This document shows positions 1 through 13,000 of a stretch of DNA of 45,482 nucleotides, one piece after another. This DNA is from an uncultured Bacteroidales bacterium (GTDB taxonomy: Bacteria; Bacteroidota; Bacteroidia; Bacteroidales; UBA932): the NCBI GenBank assembly GCA_900320545.1, contig ONSU01000016.1:1-45482 (forward strand), read 5' to 3'. Made by a program: the position numbers and the translations under genes. Each line of letters begins with the position of its first letter. The stretch's first letter is position 1. The notes under the pieces were generated by a model. The model was not told the origin of the DNA, made no database searches, and worked only from the letters and a program-made list of their open reading frames with translations.

Positions 1-509
1 AACATCAATTGATGGATTATTTGTATGCCGGAAGCATTAACACGATTCGAATGGAAACGTTGCTGTTCAAAAATGAAGTCCGATTGATTTCATGTTTAGT
101 TAGAATGGGTGCTAATGGTATCAGAGTTGACAACTTGTCTAGTGGGGGGATGTCCTGTAGTGTTGATGTTAATACAGGTCAATTATCATCTAAAGCATAT
201 GATTTTCATCGTTTGAATGTTACTTATGATCAGCATCCACAGGGCGGTAAGTTTGAAGGGGTCACTATCCCCAATTGGGAAAAATGTGTAGCCACTGTTA
301 AAGGGTTGGCCCCCAGATGTGGGAGATTTGCTAGATTGATCGGTTGGGACATAGCAATCTCCGAGAATGGAGAGCCGGTATTGATAGAGTGTAATATGAT
401 GGATTCTGGGTGTGAAAGCCTTCAATTAGACAATGGTCCTATGTTTGGTAATCTTACAGATGAAGTCCTTGAATATGTAAGAACTCATAAGAGAACAAGT
501 TATTGTTAA
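1..509 (+). CDS. Sugar-transfer-associated ATP-grasp protein, 5' end missing
   Basis: The frame is open to the left window edge, so the N-terminus is missing; the first in-window candidate start (TTG at 9, ATG at 12) is probably internal. The visible 166 residues match the C-terminal half of the ATP-grasp family associated with sugar transfer: an NTIR segment, an SSGG motif near residue 45, and the metal/ATP-binding IGWDIAI...PVLIECN segment near residues 110-127. Such proteins ligate a carboxylate to an amine or sugar with ATP and usually sit in capsule, O-antigen or exopolysaccharide clusters. The DNA is AT-rich compared with the core genes to the right, as is common for exchanged surface-polysaccharide loci. 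Its last 56 bases overlap the tail of the convergent tubulin-like gene. The family is fairly sure; the substrate is unknown. Confidence 0.8.
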   Translation, partial: HQLMDYLYAGSINTIRMETLLFKNEVRLISCLVRMGANGIRVDNLSSGGMSCSVDVNTGQLSSKAYDFHRLNVTYDQHPQGGKFEGVTIPNWEKCVATVKGLAPRCGRFARLIGWDIAISENGEPVLIECNMMDSGCESLQLDNGPMFGNLTDEVLEYVRTHKRTSYC

Positions 510-1824
510 AAAGAATGCCGTCTCCTCCACGGGAGTCGTACATCTGGGGAACCCAACCCTTTATCAGTTGGTCATTCTCGTTAACCGAGACATTGAAGTA
601 TCCAAAGTACTTTTTCAGGTTCGCAAGTTCTTCCCCATCCACATTGATACTGGAGAACATATTCCTCGTCGCAGCCTGGCTGACGAAGAAATCACTTCCC
701 TTCATATCAAGCCAGGAGGCTGCAAGCAAGAGTCCAAACTTCTTCTTCAGAAGTTCTGCGGATTCCTGTGCAAACAGGGGGAAATCAAGTTTCCCGTTCC
801 CATAATTGTGCGCGATGCACAGGAATTTCTTTGAACCATCGCTGGCAAAAGCATCCTTGCCCTTACTGCACTCACGGAAGAAATCATAGGCGGCAAATGC
901 GGCGATAAGCTCGATATAATCGGCAGGGTTGCGTTGTTCTCCTCCTCCTGTAACGCCTTTCGCTCCACCTTTAAGGACATCACGACTTTCATTTGTAGTG
1001 CGTCCAAGCAGGTACAATCTCCTATACGCCTCATTAACAGTTTTATCACTGTTATAAAACATAAGGGCTGCCTGCGAGTTGATCGCGAAGTTCTCACTTT
1101 TAGCAATGACCTCATTCAGCGATGCGGTATTGACATCAAACCTGAAATACGAGGTAAGTACGATGGAACCGAAATAATTGCTCGCGATGATATCCTTAGA
1201 TTCTCCGCCAATCAGTTTGCAGGCTTCGCGAAACGCCAGAGGAATAATCGGAATGGAGGATGCCCCGGTTCCACCAAAAACAGAGCCGAATACAAAGACG
1301 GGCTGGTTGTCAGCACTAAGAAGTATCTTCAAGAAATCACGAAGCTGGCTTGCCGTGTTGTCTCTTGAAGACTTGTAGGCTTCTTTAATGATAGCGTGGT
1401 ACATCAGCATCGAGCCCATCTGGGTCTGGGCCCTATAACCATGCTTTAGATTCATTCGGCGAACGGAATCATCCAGGAAAATATCGACAAGATCTGAAAC
1501 GTGCGTCTCATCATTATGCGCCCGCTCGTTTGAATAATTCGATATACTCTCGAACGAGCTGTCATCGGTATAGCCCGGAGTAAATTCATAATAATTGATG
1601 AATGCAGAAAAGAAGGTGTCGGACTTAGCCTTGTTACCATTCACTTTCTTATACGCATCAATTACTTCACGGAGACGGTCAAAGTTGCCATTGCCGCTGT
1701 CTGTATCCAAGGCCAGAATATGTACGTCCGTATTGTCATACATACCCATTGCGCACGTATGGACAAAACTTTCCAGACAGCGCATTCCTGTGCCGCCAAT
1801 GCCTATCAAGAAAACATTCTTCAT
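454..1824 (-). CDS. Tubulin/FtsZ-like GTPase (Tubulin_2-like), probably C-terminally truncated
   Basis: A 456-residue protein with the Rossmann-type start of the tubulin superfamily: GIGGTG at residues 8-13, LALDTD near 38-42, and the tubulin/FtsZ signature as FGGTGASS at 183-190. It is too divergent to be the cell-division FtsZ and fits the bacterial 'tubulin-like' group often found beside vWA proteins. It is the last gene of a four-gene minus-strand operon, starting 2 nt after the upstream stop. Its final 19 codons lie in the convergent ATP-grasp gene and look unlike protein selected in this frame, so the natural 3' end was probably lost at about 510. The role is unknown; GTP-dependent polymerisation is inferred from the family. 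Confidence is good for the fold and low for the function. Confidence 0.72.
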   Translation of the reverse strand: MKNVFLIGIGGTGMRCLESFVHTCAMGMYDNTDVHILALDTDSGNGNFDRLREVIDAYKKVNGNKAKSDTFFSAFINYYEFTPGYTDDSSFESISNYSNERAHNDETHVSDLVDIFLDDSVRRMNLKHGYRAQTQMGSMLMYHAIIKEAYKSSRDNTASQLRDFLKILLSADNQPVFVFGSVFGGTGASSIPIIPLAFREACKLIGGESKDIIASNYFGSIVLTSYFRFDVNTASLNEVIAKSENFAINSQAALMFYNSDKTVNEAYRRLYLLGRTTNESRDVLKGGAKGVTGGGEQRNPADYIELIAAFAAYDFFRECSKGKDAFASDGSKKFLCIAHNYGNGKLDFPLFAQESAELLKKKFGLLLAASWLDMKGSDFFVSQAATRNMFSSINVDGEELANLKKYFGYFNVSVNENDQLIKGWVPQMYDSRGGDGILFNNNLFSYEFLHIQGLHL

Positions 1825-1826
1825 CT

Positions 1827-2231
1827 TTACGCTTTCTTAGGGAAAATGGATTCCAGTTTTGTCCCCACACGCGATAATTTGACAAGAAGGAATCCGACAA
1901 TAAAGTACACAATGGCGGAAATGAATGCGCCGAGGAACAAATGAGTCATATATTTTGACACGAAAGCGGGAACCGTAATCCTGACCTTGAACATAAACCA
2001 GTTCAGGATAATGGCCCCTACAAAACTCACGAAACACATCACAAAAAACCAGATACGCCGCTTCTGACCTGACTTGTCATTCTTCCCCGGCTGCCACTTG
2101 ATGAGGTGGATGATCAGCAGCATAAGTGCAACGCAGACAATCGCAAGAGCAATATCGGCAAGATAGGTTGATGAGATGGCACTGGATAAAGCCGGCGCTG
2201 TTTTAATAACTGTTTTCACAATGTTCGTCAT
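1827..2231 (-). CDS. Small membrane protein of the vWA/tubulin-like operon
   Basis: About 134 residues with three hydrophobic segments: one near the N-terminus (DIALAIVCVALMLLIIHLI), then after a basic lysine/arginine-rich loop two more (FFVMCFVSFVGAIIL and LGAFISAIVYFIVGFLL). The ATG at 2231 is preferred. A TTG at 2252, directly after the upstream stop, would add seven residues. The gene lies between the vWA lipoprotein (21 nt upstream with this start) and the tubulin-like gene (2 nt downstream), so translation is probably coupled. I recognise no family. The context suggests an inner-membrane partner linking the periplasmic or outer-membrane vWA lipoprotein to the cytoplasmic tubulin-like protein; that is inference. 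Confidence 0.65.
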   Translation of the reverse strand: MTNIVKTVIKTAPALSSAISSTYLADIALAIVCVALMLLIIHLIKWQPGKNDKSGQKRRIWFFVMCFVSFVGAIILNWFMFKVRITVPAFVSKYMTHLFLGAFISAIVYFIVGFLLVKLSRVGTKLESIFPKKA

Positions 2232-2252
2232 AGTTGCTAGTATTACTTTCAA

Positions 2253-3581
2253 TTATAAACTATATGTGCTTATATATAATGTATATATAATAGCCGTTTT
2301 TTTATCAATAGGGCTCATGTCCGGATCTTTCAAAACCTGGGAAATACTTTCCATAATGGAGGTATTTGTCGCCTCTGCCTTTGAAGATGTGATACTTCTC
2401 CATTGAAAGGCGGAGTTTAACTCAGCATTGGAAGAAAAATTATCGGACACTTTGGTAACAACGATATCCACCTTTAGGAGATTGGGCCAGTCGGAAGAAA
2501 GCGTATTTCCCACCCCGTCAAAATCCCGATCTAGGGTCAGGACAATCTCTCCATCTTCCTCGAAGGAGCGTTTGTCAACAGCAAAGACACCTTTTACGGG
2601 AGTAACTCTGTGTGCTGACGGCATAACCTTTGCCGACGCATTCACGCTGTCAACATATTCCTGGTAATCCTCTGCGATCAAATATGCCACAGGCTCGATC
2701 TCTTCTATCTTATAGCCATCACACCCGGAAAGATTCACGAAGATTCCCCTTGTAATGTACCGTTCTTTCAAAGATCCCTCAGAAAGATATGCCTTTATAT
2801 CCTTCCAGGGAACCGCATATTCCTGCACCTCGCAGTCGGGATAAAGCCTACAATTATCTTCTACAGGTGATAAACTGACATTAATGTCCTGATCTTTTCC
2901 CTTCCTAAAAGCCACGGGGGCTCCGTTATTCAGATGCAGCATCTTCACGTCACCATTCTCGGGGGCACTTCTCACAAAGCGGTCGTAAATATTATTGGGC
3001 AGTTTTGAATCCGTAAACAGAAGATAAAAACGGAATTTGTTATACTTCCCGCTCTCCAGATAAGGTTCGCTAAAAATATAAATATCCCGCCCCTTTCTCA
3101 ACCAGACTCTGAACTCTTCCGCCAGATAAGGATTATTCAGGTTATCCCTGGTCGCGTCTTTCATATAATACTCCCCATCTGTAATCAAGACAGCCTGACG
3201 ATCTCCCGCCACAATATTGGCAACGGCCTGCTTAATATCGGCATGATTAACCTCTTTGATCGTGGACAGAAGTTGATATACTTTTTGAGGATCTTTTGTT
3301 TCTTCCGTGATTTTCGCTCCTTTAATGGAATAGAATGTTGGAGCACAATCAACAAAAGCCGGGCGCGTCTTCATATAATATTCCGACTTATAAGCCTCAG
3401 CCACACAGGTAGAGTAATCCACATAGAGATCGACATCCTTCACCATAGATGTAGGGGCCTCAGAGAAATTCAATTCGGCAAAATCTTTTATATAAGATAA
3501 GTCCTCTGAAATGTTACTGCCACAACCGAAAGCAACAATAAGAAGAATAGCCGGGATGAGGATACGACAATGCTTCATCAT
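2253..3581 (-). CDS. vWA-like lipoprotein
   Basis: About 442 residues. A lipoprotein signal peptide ends in AFGC (Cys near residue 20), followed by a Ser/Glu/Asp-containing stretch as in exported Bacteroidota lipoproteins. Two vWA-type metal-site motifs follow: a DYSTC segment near residue 55 in the DxSxS position and LITDG near residue 132. The C-terminal 250 residues are not recognised. Consecutive ATGs at 3581 and 3578 are both possible; a TTG at 3587 is less likely. It is the second gene of the operon, 33 nt after the B-box gene. vWA domains mediate metal-dependent protein binding, and vWA proteins are repeatedly paired with NTPases in bacterial regulatory and conflict loci. The assignment rests on two motifs only. 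Confidence 0.68.
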   Translation of the reverse strand: MMKHCRILIPAILLIVAFGCGSNISEDLSYIKDFAELNFSEAPTSMVKDVDLYVDYSTCVAEAYKSEYYMKTRPAFVDCAPTFYSIKGAKITEETKDPQKVYQLLSTIKEVNHADIKQAVANIVAGDRQAVLITDGEYYMKDATRDNLNNPYLAEEFRVWLRKGRDIYIFSEPYLESGKYNKFRFYLLFTDSKLPNNIYDRFVRSAPENGDVKMLHLNNGAPVAFRKGKDQDINVSLSPVEDNCRLYPDCEVQEYAVPWKDIKAYLSEGSLKERYITRGIFVNLSGCDGYKIEEIEPVAYLIAEDYQEYVDSVNASAKVMPSAHRVTPVKGVFAVDKRSFEEDGEIVLTLDRDFDGVGNTLSSDWPNLLKVDIVVTKVSDNFSSNAELNSAFQWRSITSSKAEATNTSIMESISQVLKDPDMSPIDKKTAIIYTLYISTYSL

Positions 3582-3614
3582 AATCAATAAAATAAAATAT
3601 ATACATAAAACGTA

Positions 3615-4115
3615 TTATCGCTTCATCTCAAGATCCTCAATCTTTGATGTCTTCTCAGCCACAAATAGATGAATATACTTAATCATTGCAGCGATAAAAC
3701 AAAAAACACCGATGAGCGTCGCAACGACAGCCCGGAACGAATAGATTACCATCATCCAGAAACAACCTGCAACGTTAAGGTTAAAGAACCAGGTTAAACC
3801 TAAGAGATTTGCATATCGCCAGCCGTACGGAGCAAAGAAAGCCACGGTGGTCAATATCCAGCCCCACGTCTTAGCCTCAGACAAACCAAACGTAATAAAA
3901 GCCACAAGCCCGGACAAGAGAATAGACACGGCAAGCGTCGTCAACATATCCCGCCGGGCCGCTTTTAAATTATCCCGCTCTTCTTGACGCAGCCGTTGAT
4001 AGCAATCATCGCACAAGCACGGAGTGTATTTCGAGGCACACTCGTGACATAAGGCTTTCCCACACTGAGTACAGCTTGCGACTGCCTCCTCCTGAGGATG
4101 AAAGTAACACTTCAT
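3615..4115 (-). CDS. B-box-type zinc finger membrane protein
   Basis: A 166-residue protein. The first 42 residues carry the cysteine/histidine pattern of a B-box-like zinc ribbon: Cys3, His6, a CTQC pair, a CHEC pair and a CLCDDC cluster. Such heads occur on many small bacterial membrane proteins. A charged linker (about 43-58) precedes about three hydrophobic segments (about 59-78, 85-100, 112-150), and the tail is charged. The ATG at 4115 has no competing upstream start. It is the first gene of the minus-strand operon, behind a roughly 250-nt leader. The zinc head is probably a cytoplasmic protein-interaction module on a membrane anchor. The specific role is unknown. Confidence 0.7.
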   Translation of the reverse strand: MKCYFHPQEEAVASCTQCGKALCHECASKYTPCLCDDCYQRLRQEERDNLKAARRDMLTTLAVSILLSGLVAFITFGLSEAKTWGWILTTVAFFAPYGWRYANLLGLTWFFNLNVAGCFWMMVIYSFRAVVATLIGVFCFIAAMIKYIHLFVAEKTSKIEDLEMKR

Positions 4116-4373
4116 TTCCTAAAAGTTGTCCCGCAAGCTCCATAACGAGGGATAATAATAGAAAGTGTGGAGCTTCCACTTATCAGTCCTGTAGGTTCCG
4201 GAAAGACCCTGTATTATGATAAGGCATACCCCACACTCGTATGATAGTAGTGAGATACACTGCCAACATACAGAGTGATGAGTGTTGCTATCCTAATACA
4301 ATGAAATTTTCCGGATTTCAGGACGGATGGCGTACACTTTCACCAAAAATATGTAAAGTCGTATTCGACAAAG

Positions 4374-4405
4374 CAAATATAAAACATTTTCTCTGCACAA
4401 ACAAA
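4374..4405 (-). promoter_or_regulatory. Bacteroidota-type promoter of the B-box/vWA/tubulin-like operon
   Basis: On the minus strand, TTTG (4405-4402) is followed after 20 nt by TATATTTG (4381-4374). This matches the Bacteroidota sigma-70 consensus TTTG-N19-21-TAnnTTTG. The expected transcription start is near 4367, about 250 nt before the first gene. Confidence 0.6.
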
Positions 4406-4496: not shown

Positions 4497-4550
4497 CATT
4501 GTTTGTTTCATTGTTTGTTCGTATATTTGCACTCCAGAACTGAAACAATG
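4497..4550 (+). promoter_or_regulatory. Candidate antitoxin operator: repeated CATTGTTT motifs
   Basis: The 8-mer CATTGTTT occurs as direct repeats at 4497-4504 and 4509-4516, and as its reverse complement AAACAATG at 4543-4550 over the start codon. The sites bracket the -33 and -7 elements. This is a plausible binding layout for the helix-turn-helix antitoxin encoded downstream. It is inference from position only. Confidence 0.4.
4499..4529 (+). promoter_or_regulatory. Promoter of the toxin-antitoxin-chaperone operon
   Basis: TATATTTG at 4522-4529 matches the Bacteroidota -7 element TAnnTTTG. A TTG at 4499-4501 lies 20 nt upstream and TTTG at 4502-4505 lies 16 nt upstream. Transcription should start near 4536, leaving a very short leader before the ATG at 4548. 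Confidence 0.6.
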
Positions 4551-4940
4551 GCCGACAAGGATGCAACATTAGAACAAGTTGATGCTTTCTTGAAAGAGTT
4601 TCAAGTTAAAGCAAAAGTGTTCGGCATAGATTATAACATCGACAAAGAGGAAAACCAGCAAACACTATTTGACCTTGAAATTCCCGCAAGCAAGCGTGAT
4701 GAGTACATCCTGTCATTAAAACCAGAGGATTATTACCAAGGACCAGATGTTAATGACTACGATCCCGATGAGGGCAATGTGTGGATGTTTGGAATCGGGA
4801 TAAAGAAAAGAGGACGAGGCAAAAAGATACCGATTTATATCAAGATTTACATCACCAAGGTTAATGGAGCTCCTAATTATTGTATCTCGTTCCATATAGC
4901 AAAGTTTGAAATGACATTCCCTTATAAAGCCACGTTATGA
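4548..4940 (+). CDS. MqsR-like mRNA interferase toxin of a TAC module
   Basis: About 130 residues from the ATG at 4548; an upstream in-frame start at 4503 lies inside the promoter and is rejected. The C-terminal half has the layout of Bacteroides MqsR-like toxins: an LKPEDYYQGP segment, a tryptophan-containing VWMFGIGI strand, a positively charged IPIYIKIYI strand and a CISFHIAKFEM strand ending in FPYK. It resembles the MqsR pattern of a DFYK-type helix followed by VYLKL and VSFKE strands. MqsR-family proteins are RelE-fold ribonucleases that cut mRNA. The stop codon overlaps the antitoxin start as ATGA, giving toxin-first order as in MqsRA. The family is recognised by pattern; activity is inferred. 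Confidence 0.68.
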   Translation: MADKDATLEQVDAFLKEFQVKAKVFGIDYNIDKEENQQTLFDLEIPASKRDEYILSLKPEDYYQGPDVNDYDPDEGNVWMFGIGIKKRGRGKKIPIYIKIYITKVNGAPNYCISFHIAKFEMTFPYKATL

Positions 4941-5512
4941 AAAGTCCTTTTACCGACGGAAACGTCACGAAACATTTTAAGTACGAGACTTATACTTTTA
5001 GGAATGAAAAGTATACAGTCAAGAGATTCTATTATCAATGTGTCGATACGGGAAGAACCTTCTCCAATGCCGAAGTTGATGATAAGGTGATGGCTGATTT
5101 GTACGCCCAATATCGTGAGCGGCATGGGATACCCTCTCCTTCTGATTTAAAGAGCCTGCGCGAAAAGTATGGACTCTCTTCTCATATTATGTCTAAGATA
5201 GCCGGAATCGGTATTAATCAATATGGTTTATACGAGAATGGTGAAATGCCCACTTTGTCTATTGGGTTGCGGCTGGCGTCCTTATTTGACAGAACATCTC
5301 TTCTGAAGAGTATTGAGAATGCCCGCGGAAAGTTGGGAAAAGACTATACAAGGGTTAAAGATTTGGTCGAATCCGGCTTCGAGCCTGTTTCCTACTCGTT
5401 TGAGAAGGTATACTACGGTGATTATGAAGAAATAATGCCATTCGCTTTCCCTTCCATCGCAATGACGATGAAGAATTCCCGTTGGGCAACATACGGCAAA
5501 AAACAGTTGTGA
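4937..5512 (+). CDS. MqsA/YgiT-like helix-turn-helix antitoxin with C-terminal extension
   Basis: 191 residues in three parts. The N-terminal part (1-50) is MqsA/YgiT-like, with MKSPFT and FYYQCVDTGRTF segments, but it has lost the usual CxxC zinc ligands. The middle part is a Xre-type helix-turn-helix (about 72-118) with the family's LREKYGLSS...GIGINQYGLYENGE signature. A C-terminal extension (about 120-191) is rich in Tyr, Phe and Pro. In known toxin-antitoxin-chaperone operons such an extension is the chaperone-addiction segment that makes the antitoxin depend on a SecB-like chaperone. It overlaps the toxin gene by 4 nt and ends 2 nt before the chaperone. It probably represses the operon through the CATTGTTT sites. 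Confidence 0.72.
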   Translation: MKSPFTDGNVTKHFKYETYTFRNEKYTVKRFYYQCVDTGRTFSNAEVDDKVMADLYAQYRERHGIPSPSDLKSLREKYGLSSHIMSKIAGIGINQYGLYENGEMPTLSIGLRLASLFDRTSLLKSIENARGKLGKDYTRVKDLVESGFEPVSYSFEKVYYGDYEEIMPFAFPSIAMTMKNSRWATYGKKQL

Positions 5513-10051: not shown

Positions 10052-13000
10052 TTATACCAAACCTTTTCCGTGGCAGTTCTTGTATTTGAGGCCGCTCCCG
10101 CACGGACAGGGATCGTTGCGGCCGACTTTCTTCTCTACGCGGACCGGCGTGCGGGACTTCTCACCACCCGCGTTGGTGGAGAGATCCTGGGTGCGGGTCG
10201 TCCGCATCTCGGAGAGGTCGCGGCGGGGCTGCGGGGCCCGGGCCGACTGCACCTCGCTCTGGTCGCGGAGCGGAATGAAGGCGCGCAGCAGGAACTGCAG
10301 GACGTCCTTGTAGAGTTCTTCGAGCATCGAGGAGAAGAGCTGGTAACTCTCCTGCTTGTACACGACGATCGGGTCTTTCTGCTCGTAGGCGGCATTCTGG
10401 ACACTCTGACGGAGGTCGTCCATATCGCGAAGATGCTGCTTCCAGTGCTCGTCGATCTGGTAGAGGATGAGCGACTTGCTGAGCGACTTGGCGATCTCGC
10501 GGCCTTCGCTCTCGTAGGCCTTCTTGAGATTGACGGAGAGGTTGAGGACCTTGCGGCCGTCGCTGATGGGAATCGCGATATTCTGATAGATCGAGCCCTG
10601 TTTCTCGTAGACCTGCCTGATGAAGGGGCCGACCTTGGTGATCATCGTGTCAATCCTGCGCTGATACACGTCCATCATATGGGCGCTCAGCAGGTCGACA
10701 AGCCCTTGCGGACGGGTATGGTCGTATGTTTCCTCGTCAAATCCGAGGTCGATCGAAAGCTGCGACATGATGTACTCCTCGAAGCCGGCGTAATCGAGCC
10801 CTTCGGCTCCGCTGACGAGGATATCGGCCATATCGGTCATCATATTCTGGAGATCGATCTCGATGCGTTCTCCGTAAAGGGCGTTGCGGCGGCGGCTGTA
10901 GATGGCCTCGCGCTGATAGTTCATCACATCGTCGTACTCGAGGAGGCGCTTGCGGATGCCGAAGTTGTTCTCTTCGACCTTGGTCTGCGCCTTCTCGATG
11001 GCCTTGGAGAGGGAACGGGCGACGAGCGCCTCGTCATCCTTCATGCCGAGGGCGTCGACGATCCGGGCGATACGCTCGGAGCCGAAAACGCGCATCAGCT
11101 TGTCTTCCAAGGAGATATAGAAGGTCGAAGAACCCGGGTCTCCCTGACGTCCGGCACGTCCGCGAAGCTGACGGTCGACGCGGCGGCTGTCGTGACGTTC
11201 CGTACCGATGATCGCGAGACCGCCCGCGGCCCGCACTTCGTCGGAGAGCTTGATATCGGTACCACGACCGGCCATGTTGGTCGCGATGGTGACTTTTCCC
11301 TTCTGGCCCGCCTGGGCGACGATCTCCGCCTCACGGGCATGCTCCTTGGCGTTGAGCACGTTGGCGTGGATGCCGCGGAGACGCATCATCCTGTCGAGCA
11401 GTTCGGAGGTTTCCACGTCGGTCGTACCGACGAGGACGGAGCGGCCGGCGCCCGTGATCTCGACGACGCGGTCGATGACGGCCAGGTATTTGGCCTTCTT
11501 GGTCTTGTAGATGATATCGTCCTCGTCGTTGCGGATGACCGGCCGGTTGGTCGGAATCTCGACGACGTCGAGTTTGTAGATATCCCAGAACTCACCCGCC
11601 TCGGTAACGGCCGTACCGGTCATACCGGCGAGTTTGTGGTACATTCTGAAGTAGTTCTGGAGGGTGATCGTGGCAAAAGTCTGCGTCGCGGCCTCGACCT
11701 TGACGTTCTCCTTCGCCTCGACCGCCTGATGCAGACCGTCGCTCCAGCGGCGGCCTTCCATGATACGGCCGGTGGACTCGTCCACGATCTTGACCTTGCC
11801 GTCGACGATGATGTAGTCGACCTCCTTCTGGAACATCGCATACGCCTTGAGGAGCTGGATCACGGTGTGGACGCGCTCGCTCTTGAGGGAGAAATCCTCC
11901 ATCAGGGCGTCCTTCTTCTCCTGCTTCTCCAGAGCGGAGAGGGAGTCGTTCCCCTGGATTTCCGCGATGGCGGTACCTACGTCGGGAAGGACGAAGAAGT
12001 TGGGGTCGGACACGGATTTCGCGAGCATATCGTGGCCCTTGTCGGTCATTTCGACGGAATTCTGGACTTCGCTGATGACGAAGTAGAGCTCGTCGGTAAC
12101 CTGCGGCATCTCGCGTTCGTTGTCCTGCATATAGTAGTTCTCGGCCTTCTGGAGGAGCTGCTTCATCCCCTGCTCGCTGAGGAATTTGATGAGCGGCTGG
12201 TACTTGGGAAGTCCCTTGTGAGCGCGGAGAAGGAGTTTGCCGCCTTCCGCCTCGTCTCCCGCCGCGATGGCTTTCTTGGCCTCCTGGAGGGTGGTCGTCA
12301 CGAGGGCGCGCTGCTTGTTGTAGAGGTTCTCGACGTAGGGGCGGAACTCCATGAACTGCTCGTCGTCCTGACTCTTCTGCACGGGGCCGGAGATGATGAG
12401 CGGGGTACGGGCGTCGTCGATGAGGACGGAGTCGACCTCGTCGACGATGGCGTAATGGTGCTTGCGCTGGACAAGGTCTTCGGGACGGACCGCCATATTG
12501 TCACGGAGGTAGTCGAAACCGAATTCGTTGTTGGTACCGAAGGTGATGTCGCAGTTGTAGGCGCGTTTGCGGGCCTCGCTGTTGGGCTGGTGCTTGTCGA
12601 TGCAGTCGACGCTGAGCCCGTGGAACTGATAGAGCGGGCCCATCCACTCGGAGTCACGCTTGGACAGGTAGTCGTTGACGGTAACGACGTGGACGCCTTT
12701 GCCGGCGAGAGCGTTGAGGAAGACCGGGAACGTGGCGACGAGGGTCTTTCCCTCACCGGTCGCCATCTCGGCGATGCTGCCCCGCTGCTCTTTCTCTTTG
12801 TTGGCGCTGCCGTGGAGGACGATACCGCCCACGATCTGGCAGTTGTAATGGACCATATCCCATTTGAGGTCGTTGCCGCCGGCGATCCAGTGGTTCTGCC
12901 AGACGGCCACGTCGCGGCCGCCGTGCGTCTCTCCGTCGCCGAGGTCGGTGCCGCCGCGGTGCTCGATGCTGATGAAGTCCTTCCCTTCGGCCGCCAGCTG

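Follow-up and report, generated by a model that had tools for sequence, protein, structure and literature searches.

A probable Bacteroidales form of the membrane-associated NTPase systems of the GAP1-N2/FtsZl1 kind

We analysed 45,482 nucleotides of an uncultured Bacteroidales bacterium of the UBA932 lineage (assembly GCA_900320545.1, contig ONSU01000016.1; hereafter the window), which form contig C13 of the 58-contig source genome, G000. Near the start of the window, four closely spaced minus-strand genes encode, in order of transcription, a membrane protein with a B-box-like zinc motif, a lipoprotein, a small membrane protein and a tubulin-like protein. These genes very probably make up the 5' portion of an acquired NTPase system, membrane-associated and of the GAP1-N2/FtsZl1 kind, in a Bacteroidales form that continues on another contig of the same genome.

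Gene content and continuation of the operon

The features at the start of the window are the following:

1..489 (+): fragment of an ATP-grasp gene of the sugar-transfer type (ATPgrasp_ST, E 2e-32), outside the operon; its open reading frame (ORF) spans 3-509
454-1824 (-): tubulin-like ORF of the FtsZl1/Tubulin_2 type; homologous part 490..1824 (residues 1-445), about 66 C-terminal residues missing
1827..2231 (-): 134-amino-acid (aa) membrane protein with three hydrophobic helices (3-TM protein)
2253..3581 (-), ATG at 3581: 442-aa lipoprotein with a divergent, likely vWA domain; MIDAS-like DYSTC motif, ITDG motif and a lipobox-like AFGC found by eye
3615..4115 (-): 166-aa membrane protein with an N-terminal B-box-like zinc motif (Pfam zf-B_box, E 7e-4, below cut-off)
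4374-4381 and 4344-4351 (-): two predicted TAnnTTTG promoter-like boxes, 5' of the operon

A preliminary description of this DNA had listed the four minus-strand ORFs with the same coordinates, and the GIGGTG, FGGTGASS, DYSTC and LITDG motifs and three hydrophobic helices that it named are all present; its B-box has a Pfam match, though one below cut-off. The genes are separated by 2 nt (tubulin-like/3-TM), 21 nt (3-TM/lipoprotein) and 33 nt (lipoprotein/B-box). The G+C content is 44.3% over 490-4115 and 58.0% over 5974-45482, from obg on, in agreement with the earlier view of an AT-rich accessory locus. Two predicted boxes stand upstream in place of the single promoter proposed; TAnnTTTG is the Bacteroides promoter consensus.

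The tubulin-like ORF aligns with its relatives only up to about residue 445 (window position ~490), and its last 11 residues are read-through into the ATP-grasp fragment. Complete tubulin relatives in the loci have 507-533 aa, and we reject an intact tubulin gene here, the ORF being cut at about residue 445. The closest relative is L012, with a tubulin 82% identical, and the gene after the L012 tubulin served as query against the genome. A homologue, 76% identical and beginning near codon 24, was found at the very end of contig C26. Seven genes continue there on the same strand, with products of 1,130+, 686, 442, 772, 680, 214 and 131 aa, of which the last two are lipoprotein-like. A four-gene system, as first described, is thus rejected, since the operon resumes on C26. 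The G+C content of this part is 45.6%, against 61.9% in the adjoining DNA. Beyond the operon genes lie hpt and adk on C26 and obg on C13. We infer a single island of ~18 kb between adk and obg, made up of parts of C26 and C13 and carrying an operon of about eleven genes, with positions 1-489 of the window being probably a chimeric contig end or a recombination joint. Judging from L012, the two contigs would be separated by about 270 nt encoding the end of the tubulin and the start of the next protein.

Alternatively, the system could be dead in this strain, a real rearrangement having fused the tubulin gene to the ATP-grasp gene and left the two halves of the operon apart. The ATP-grasp ORF, on the opposite strand, breaks at about the same point as the tubulin gene, near 490, and the fragment is single copy in its genome, so no second contig end claims it; because of this missing second copy there is room for a true rearrangement. 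In addition, 18 of 24 other obg loci of the same genus lack a nearby adk. Against this, the break coincides with a contig end of a 58-contig assembly, the other half begins at the very end of C26, and order and orientation fit one operon lying between adk (C26) and obg (C13); adk is near obg in the remaining six loci and colinear in five of the 24. We therefore regard a dead system as improbable.

Family assignments of the encoded proteins

The tubulin-like protein carries an FtsZ-like nucleotide-binding domain with a GGGTG-type loop, as expected of FtsZl1/Tubulin_2; the tubulin-superfamily fold claimed before is supported. That family is also marked by a long coiled coil and a C-terminal domain of helices; the structure model of the tubulin-like protein, of middling confidence, is mostly helical after residue 350. 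The gene is not the division FtsZ, as the genome carries separate FtsZ and FtsA genes on C42. We also rejected a phage gene: the L012 tubulin has no match in 50,697 phage records, while one IMG/VR contig has the genes beside an integrase.

The vWA domain is a Rossmann fold with a metal ion-dependent adhesion site (MIDAS) formed by DxSxS and a distal Asp. Of all columns in an alignment of 26 lipoproteins, just two show no variation: the central Ser of DxSxS and the Asp of ITDG. The last Ser is replaced by Cys in the window lipoprotein, many lipoproteins of the sister clade of tubulin loci (clade B; the window belongs to clade A) have ExSGSM, and one has DNSASM. By hhalign against 28 VWA_2 proteins, the sister clade scores 88% and the window clade 40%; lipoproteins of the two clades align with each other at 92%, compared with at most 1.2% for the unrelated pairs tried. 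Counting against a vWA domain, Pfam VWA_2 is found in one of the 26 members (E 0.052), and the model of the window lipoprotein (pLDDT 62) has no vWA match. The vWA assignment of the preliminary description thus holds in part: the lipoprotein is likely of vWA type by its homologues, not by its fold.

The gene that follows the tubulin encodes a candidate actin/Hsp70-like ATPase. The L012 homologue (1,154 aa) has, as in its relatives, two actin/Hsp70-class phosphate-binding motifs in the C-terminal half, and an N-terminal part of ~550 aa without a Pfam match. The sister-clade ATPase profile matches MreB (E 1.5e-5) and also Hsp70; at E up to 0.1, 12 of 16 sister-clade ATPases match FtsA and nine match Ppx-GppA, and hhalign against 24 FtsA proteins gives 95.5%. 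The window-clade ATPase aligns to the sister clade at 99.8%, and its actin-like assignment runs via that clade because the window clade alone is weak.

Two DO-GTPase2 genes belong to the operon of G000 (E 3.8e-11 and 8.5e-14, above cut-off), and seven aligned GTPases share invariant pairs of Cys in their N-terminal part, which points to a zinc ribbon. The 680-aa DO-GTPase begins with a signal-like segment and, by hydropathy, has three strong helices ahead of the GTPase domain, with no C-terminal helix found; a fourth helix and an SH3-like part were seen by eye only. Its secreted-looking N-terminus makes the trans-envelope arrangement proposed earlier more plausible. GAP1-N2 is detected above cut-off in the closest relative (E 1.2e-7) and below it in the copy of G000 (E 8.9e-4), which is 45% identical to that relative over 768 of 784 residues. 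With Pfam at E up to 0.05 we detected GAP1-N2 only, not GAP1-M or GAP1-C, and it matched FNIII neither in the 682/686-aa protein nor in the 1154-aa one.

Distribution, mobility and the sister clade

Of 393 Bacteroidales genomes, 24 have a tubulin detected by a clade-A profile, and 12 of the 24 carry clade-A copies; the clade-B count is low because the search used the clade-A profile. The clade-A lipoprotein profile matches 13 of the 393 genomes, namely the same 12 and G144, where it matches in two pieces. The co-occurrence check suggested in the preliminary description thus gave a strong association of lipoprotein and tubulin, adjacent or not (Fisher p 5e-22, uncorrected for descent; 12 genomes in eight families). 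The lipoprotein is not next to a tubulin in seven of the 12 genomes: six have it on another contig, and one has it at a distance of ~40 kb.

We mapped 40 tubulin loci (rows), 37 of which have more than 1.5 kb of downstream sequence; L021 repeats the L017 locus. The actin-like ATPase lies within 300 nt downstream of the tubulin in 33 of these 37 rows (16/20 in clade A, including one repeat, and 17/17 in clade B). Where more than 3 kb is available upstream, the vWA-type lipoprotein lies within 1.5 kb in 9/17 clade-A and 13/14 clade-B rows. Of 22 clade-A rows, 12 have a 3-TM homologue ahead of the tubulin (once at a distance of 1.3 kb), and 11 of the 18 clade-B rows have a second type of small membrane protein there. 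In a tree of 37 tubulins (without L021, L022 and L065), the seven rows with GTPase and GAP1 genes form one branch (100/100); the window is included and carries this label because of the genes on C26.

Some copies lie on mobile DNA. In an IMG/VR contig (L157 1747-4566), a tyrosine integrase directly precedes the lipoprotein, 3-TM, tubulin, ATPase and a g6 homologue. A plasmid of Gloeothece verrucosa (NC_014503.1 39251-47534; L158 12001-19788) carries a tubulin-like and actin-like pair with, on the opposite strand, a lipoprotein-like gene bearing a DGSGS motif, and four more cyanobacterial plasmids match the tubulin. A separate observation concerns L026, where a divergent tubulin/ATPase pair has downstream of it a gene that, by eye, begins with a ParA/MinD-like P-loop (10487-11998; KGGVGRT).

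In the stretches fetched, ZorA/ZorB occur in no clade-A row and GTPase/GAP1 in no clade-B row. Both ZorA and ZorB homologues were found in ten of 18 clade-B rows, or in 9/14 of those with more than 8 kb downstream. In these rows (L024, L025, L069, L070, L072-L077), the lipoprotein gene comes with those for the small membrane protein, the tubulin-like protein and the actin-like ATPase, and the ZorA/ZorB homologues stand after them. PADLOC, run on the sister-clade loci L024 and L025, reports ZorB1 (E 1.9e-13) and ZorA2 (E 5.8e-5) in the former and ZorB1 (E 7.9e-10) and ZorA2 (E 2.3e-11) in the latter. Nine of ten ZorB proteins retain the plug-region Asp that follows the SY motif; the exception, L073, starts after this position as called. 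All six ZorB proteins tested match MotB_plug and four match OmpA, below cut-off throughout (E 0.0009-0.033). The ZorA and ZorB profiles match no clade-A row and not L030, and PADLOC finds no ZorA/B in the four window proteins or in three L012 proteins. Further along the sister-clade loci, a DNA/RNA non-specific endonuclease gene follows in L024 (16669-17463; Pfam E 2e-51) and also in L025.

The human oral strain Prevotella sp. oral taxon 299 F0039 (NC_022111.1; L161 3250-10261) carries genes for the lipoprotein, the small membrane protein, the tubulin and the ATPase, in this order; over the 20 kb examined, the ZorA/B and GTPase/GAP1 profiles had no match. Being a sister-clade locus of a named strain, it makes this set of genes testable.

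Relation to known systems and proposed mechanism

The preliminary description knew of no system with this gene set, but related ones have been described. Makarova and Koonin (2010, PMC2875224) reported FtsZl1 operons with vWA proteins, GTPases, kinases and OmpA-domain proteins and proposed membrane remodelling, and a reviewer there raised the question of how an FtsZ-like protein in the cytoplasm might work together with partners in the periplasm. The divergent FtsZ-like protein, the vWA and P-loop GTPase partners and the patchy distribution are shared with our operon, whereas the accessible text of that paper mentions no actin-like partner. It places OmpA-domain proteins in several genomes and treats them as transport proteins, and Bacteroides caccae appears in an alignment legend; the OmpA-matching neighbours in our analysis are ZorB/MotB-like, and some of the OmpA-family neighbours of 2010 may be motor stators of this kind.

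Kaur, Burroughs, Iyer and Aravind (2020, PMC7159879) described tubulin, vWA, DO-GTPase and GAP1-N2 systems, with a conflict role as a prediction. As in their tubulin theme, one operon here combines a zinc-ribbon DO-GTPase, GAP1-N2, a tubulin-domain protein and a vWA protein (the last by homologues, not by fold), with a second DO-GTPase that has multiple membrane helices and an SH3-like secreted part (the latter by eye). Compared with what the accessible text describes, our operon is in Bacteroidales, has one tubulin and carries the vWA domain on a lipoprotein. The actin/Hsp70-like protein adjoins the tubulin here, whereas HSP70 is a separate theme in the paper; FNIII (by Pfam) and GAP1-M/C are not detected here.

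Zorya (Mariano et al. 2025, PMC11890865) shares with the sister clade the ZorA- and ZorB-like genes, which in that clade follow the tubulin and ATPase. The window operon, unlike Zorya, has no ZorA/ZorB in what was scanned, with no search made for ZorC, ZorD or ZorE, and tubulin and vWA are absent from the main text of the Zorya paper. The vWA force transducers beside TolQ(R)-like motors (PMC12204202) resemble the sister clade in placing a vWA gene beside an inner-membrane ion-driven motor; they differ in being membrane-tethered transducers, and FtsZ is absent from the main text of that paper, whose accessible passages show no tubulin. The pairing of a tubulin homologue with an actin-like ATPase is also that of FtsZ and FtsA in cell division, from which the system differs in the ATPase's long N-terminal part and in coexisting with the cell's own FtsZ and FtsA. 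The kind of system is thus already known. Among the literature matches listed, which leave most subscription journals uncovered, no paper treats the Bacteroidales form, an actin-like partner or a tubulin-Zor operon, and the tubulin-vWA-GTPase machines predicted in 2010 and 2020 apparently still await experiments.

In the mechanism that we propose, the vWA-type lipoprotein, on the periplasmic side, would use its metal site to bind a ligand or a damaged envelope component. The 3-TM protein and the membrane DO-GTPase, with its secreted-looking N-terminus, three to four helices, zinc ribbon and GTPase domain, would relay this signal across the inner membrane, and the soluble zinc-ribbon DO-GTPase and GAP1 would set the threshold. 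On release of the switch, the tubulin-like protein and the actin/Hsp70-like ATPase would assemble on the inner membrane. The cell would thereby be reshaped, sealed or killed, most likely in defence against phage or some other invader. The proposal builds on the observed gene content, the family or fold assignments, the predicted topology, the co-occurrence and the marks of mobility, while ligand sensing, the direction of signalling, assembly and outcome are its conjectural parts. We consider an envelope-coupled, GTPase-gated tubulin/actin-like assembly rather probable as a class of mechanism and put forward the full defence mechanism tentatively, at slightly under even chances.

Several results weigh against this interpretation. 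The tubulin profiles align with FtsZ by hhalign at 0.4-0.5% only, the C-terminal half of the window-clade ATPase aligns with FtsA at only 16%, and the clade-A hmmsearch against PDB found no tubulin and no actin-like chain. None of the four window proteins has a PADLOC match, and among three L012 proteins the GTPase alone gives one, a weak hit to PtuA (E 0.026). We recognised no toxic or nuclease effector in the window-type operon. The ATPase is not next to the tubulin in four clade-A rows (L019, L020, L022 and L060), and six others of this clade (L017, L018, L058, L059, L061 and L062) have tubulin and ATPase without GTPase/GAP1 in the stretch fetched. Finally, three genomes of family f10 and three of f55 have the tubulin, which would suit a housekeeping role too.

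The principal alternative is such a role: a host cytoskeleton that remodels membranes or forms vesicles, as proposed for FtsZl1 in 2010, with no part in conflict. Besides the published hypothesis (PMC2875224), it draws on the FtsZ-FtsA-like partnership and on the tubulins of f10 and f55, which lack nearby GTPase/GAP1 genes and group by family in the tree. It accords poorly with the patchy distribution (24/393 genomes), the integrase and plasmid linkage, the ZorA/ZorB partners in the sister clade and the foreign base composition in the window genome, although at L011 the operon is G+C-richer than its upstream flank. We find it unlikely, at perhaps one chance in four. A TubZ-type segregation system of plasmids or islands is very improbable: the cyanobacterial plasmid copies and tubulin-superfamily membership would suit it, but a vWA lipoprotein and a membrane GTPase as envelope partners do not fit DNA partition, and the window copy adjoins core genes, no search for a centromere-like array having been made.

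Returning to the envelope-coupled assembly, this variant supplies candidate envelope bridges (the 3-TM protein, the membrane DO-GTPase and the ZorA/ZorB of the sister clade) and an actin-like partner. It is conceivable, though somewhat less than evenly likely, that the vWA lipoprotein, the small membrane protein, the tubulin-like protein and the actin-like ATPase make up a conserved trans-envelope cytoskeletal core that serves as a plug-in sensor-scaffold. This core would have been joined to power or switch units of two unrelated kinds, in one case a pair of DO-GTPases with GAP1 and in the other an ion-driven ZorA/ZorB motor. Such a core would be, to our knowledge, the first immune-type machine to use both bacterial filament superfamilies together.

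The profile of the B-box protein has no match in the 38 other loci scanned, and by this comparison the protein is not a conserved operon member; in L014 (7708-7890) and L016 (2094-2276), a 60-aa membrane-type protein precedes the lipoprotein and the B-box gene is absent. Beside the operon, a divergent gene pair (window 4548-5512, +), whose second gene encodes an MqsA-type antitoxin-like helix-turn-helix protein (Pfam MqsA_antitoxin, E 1.9e-8), is a toxin-antitoxin-like module at the island edge.

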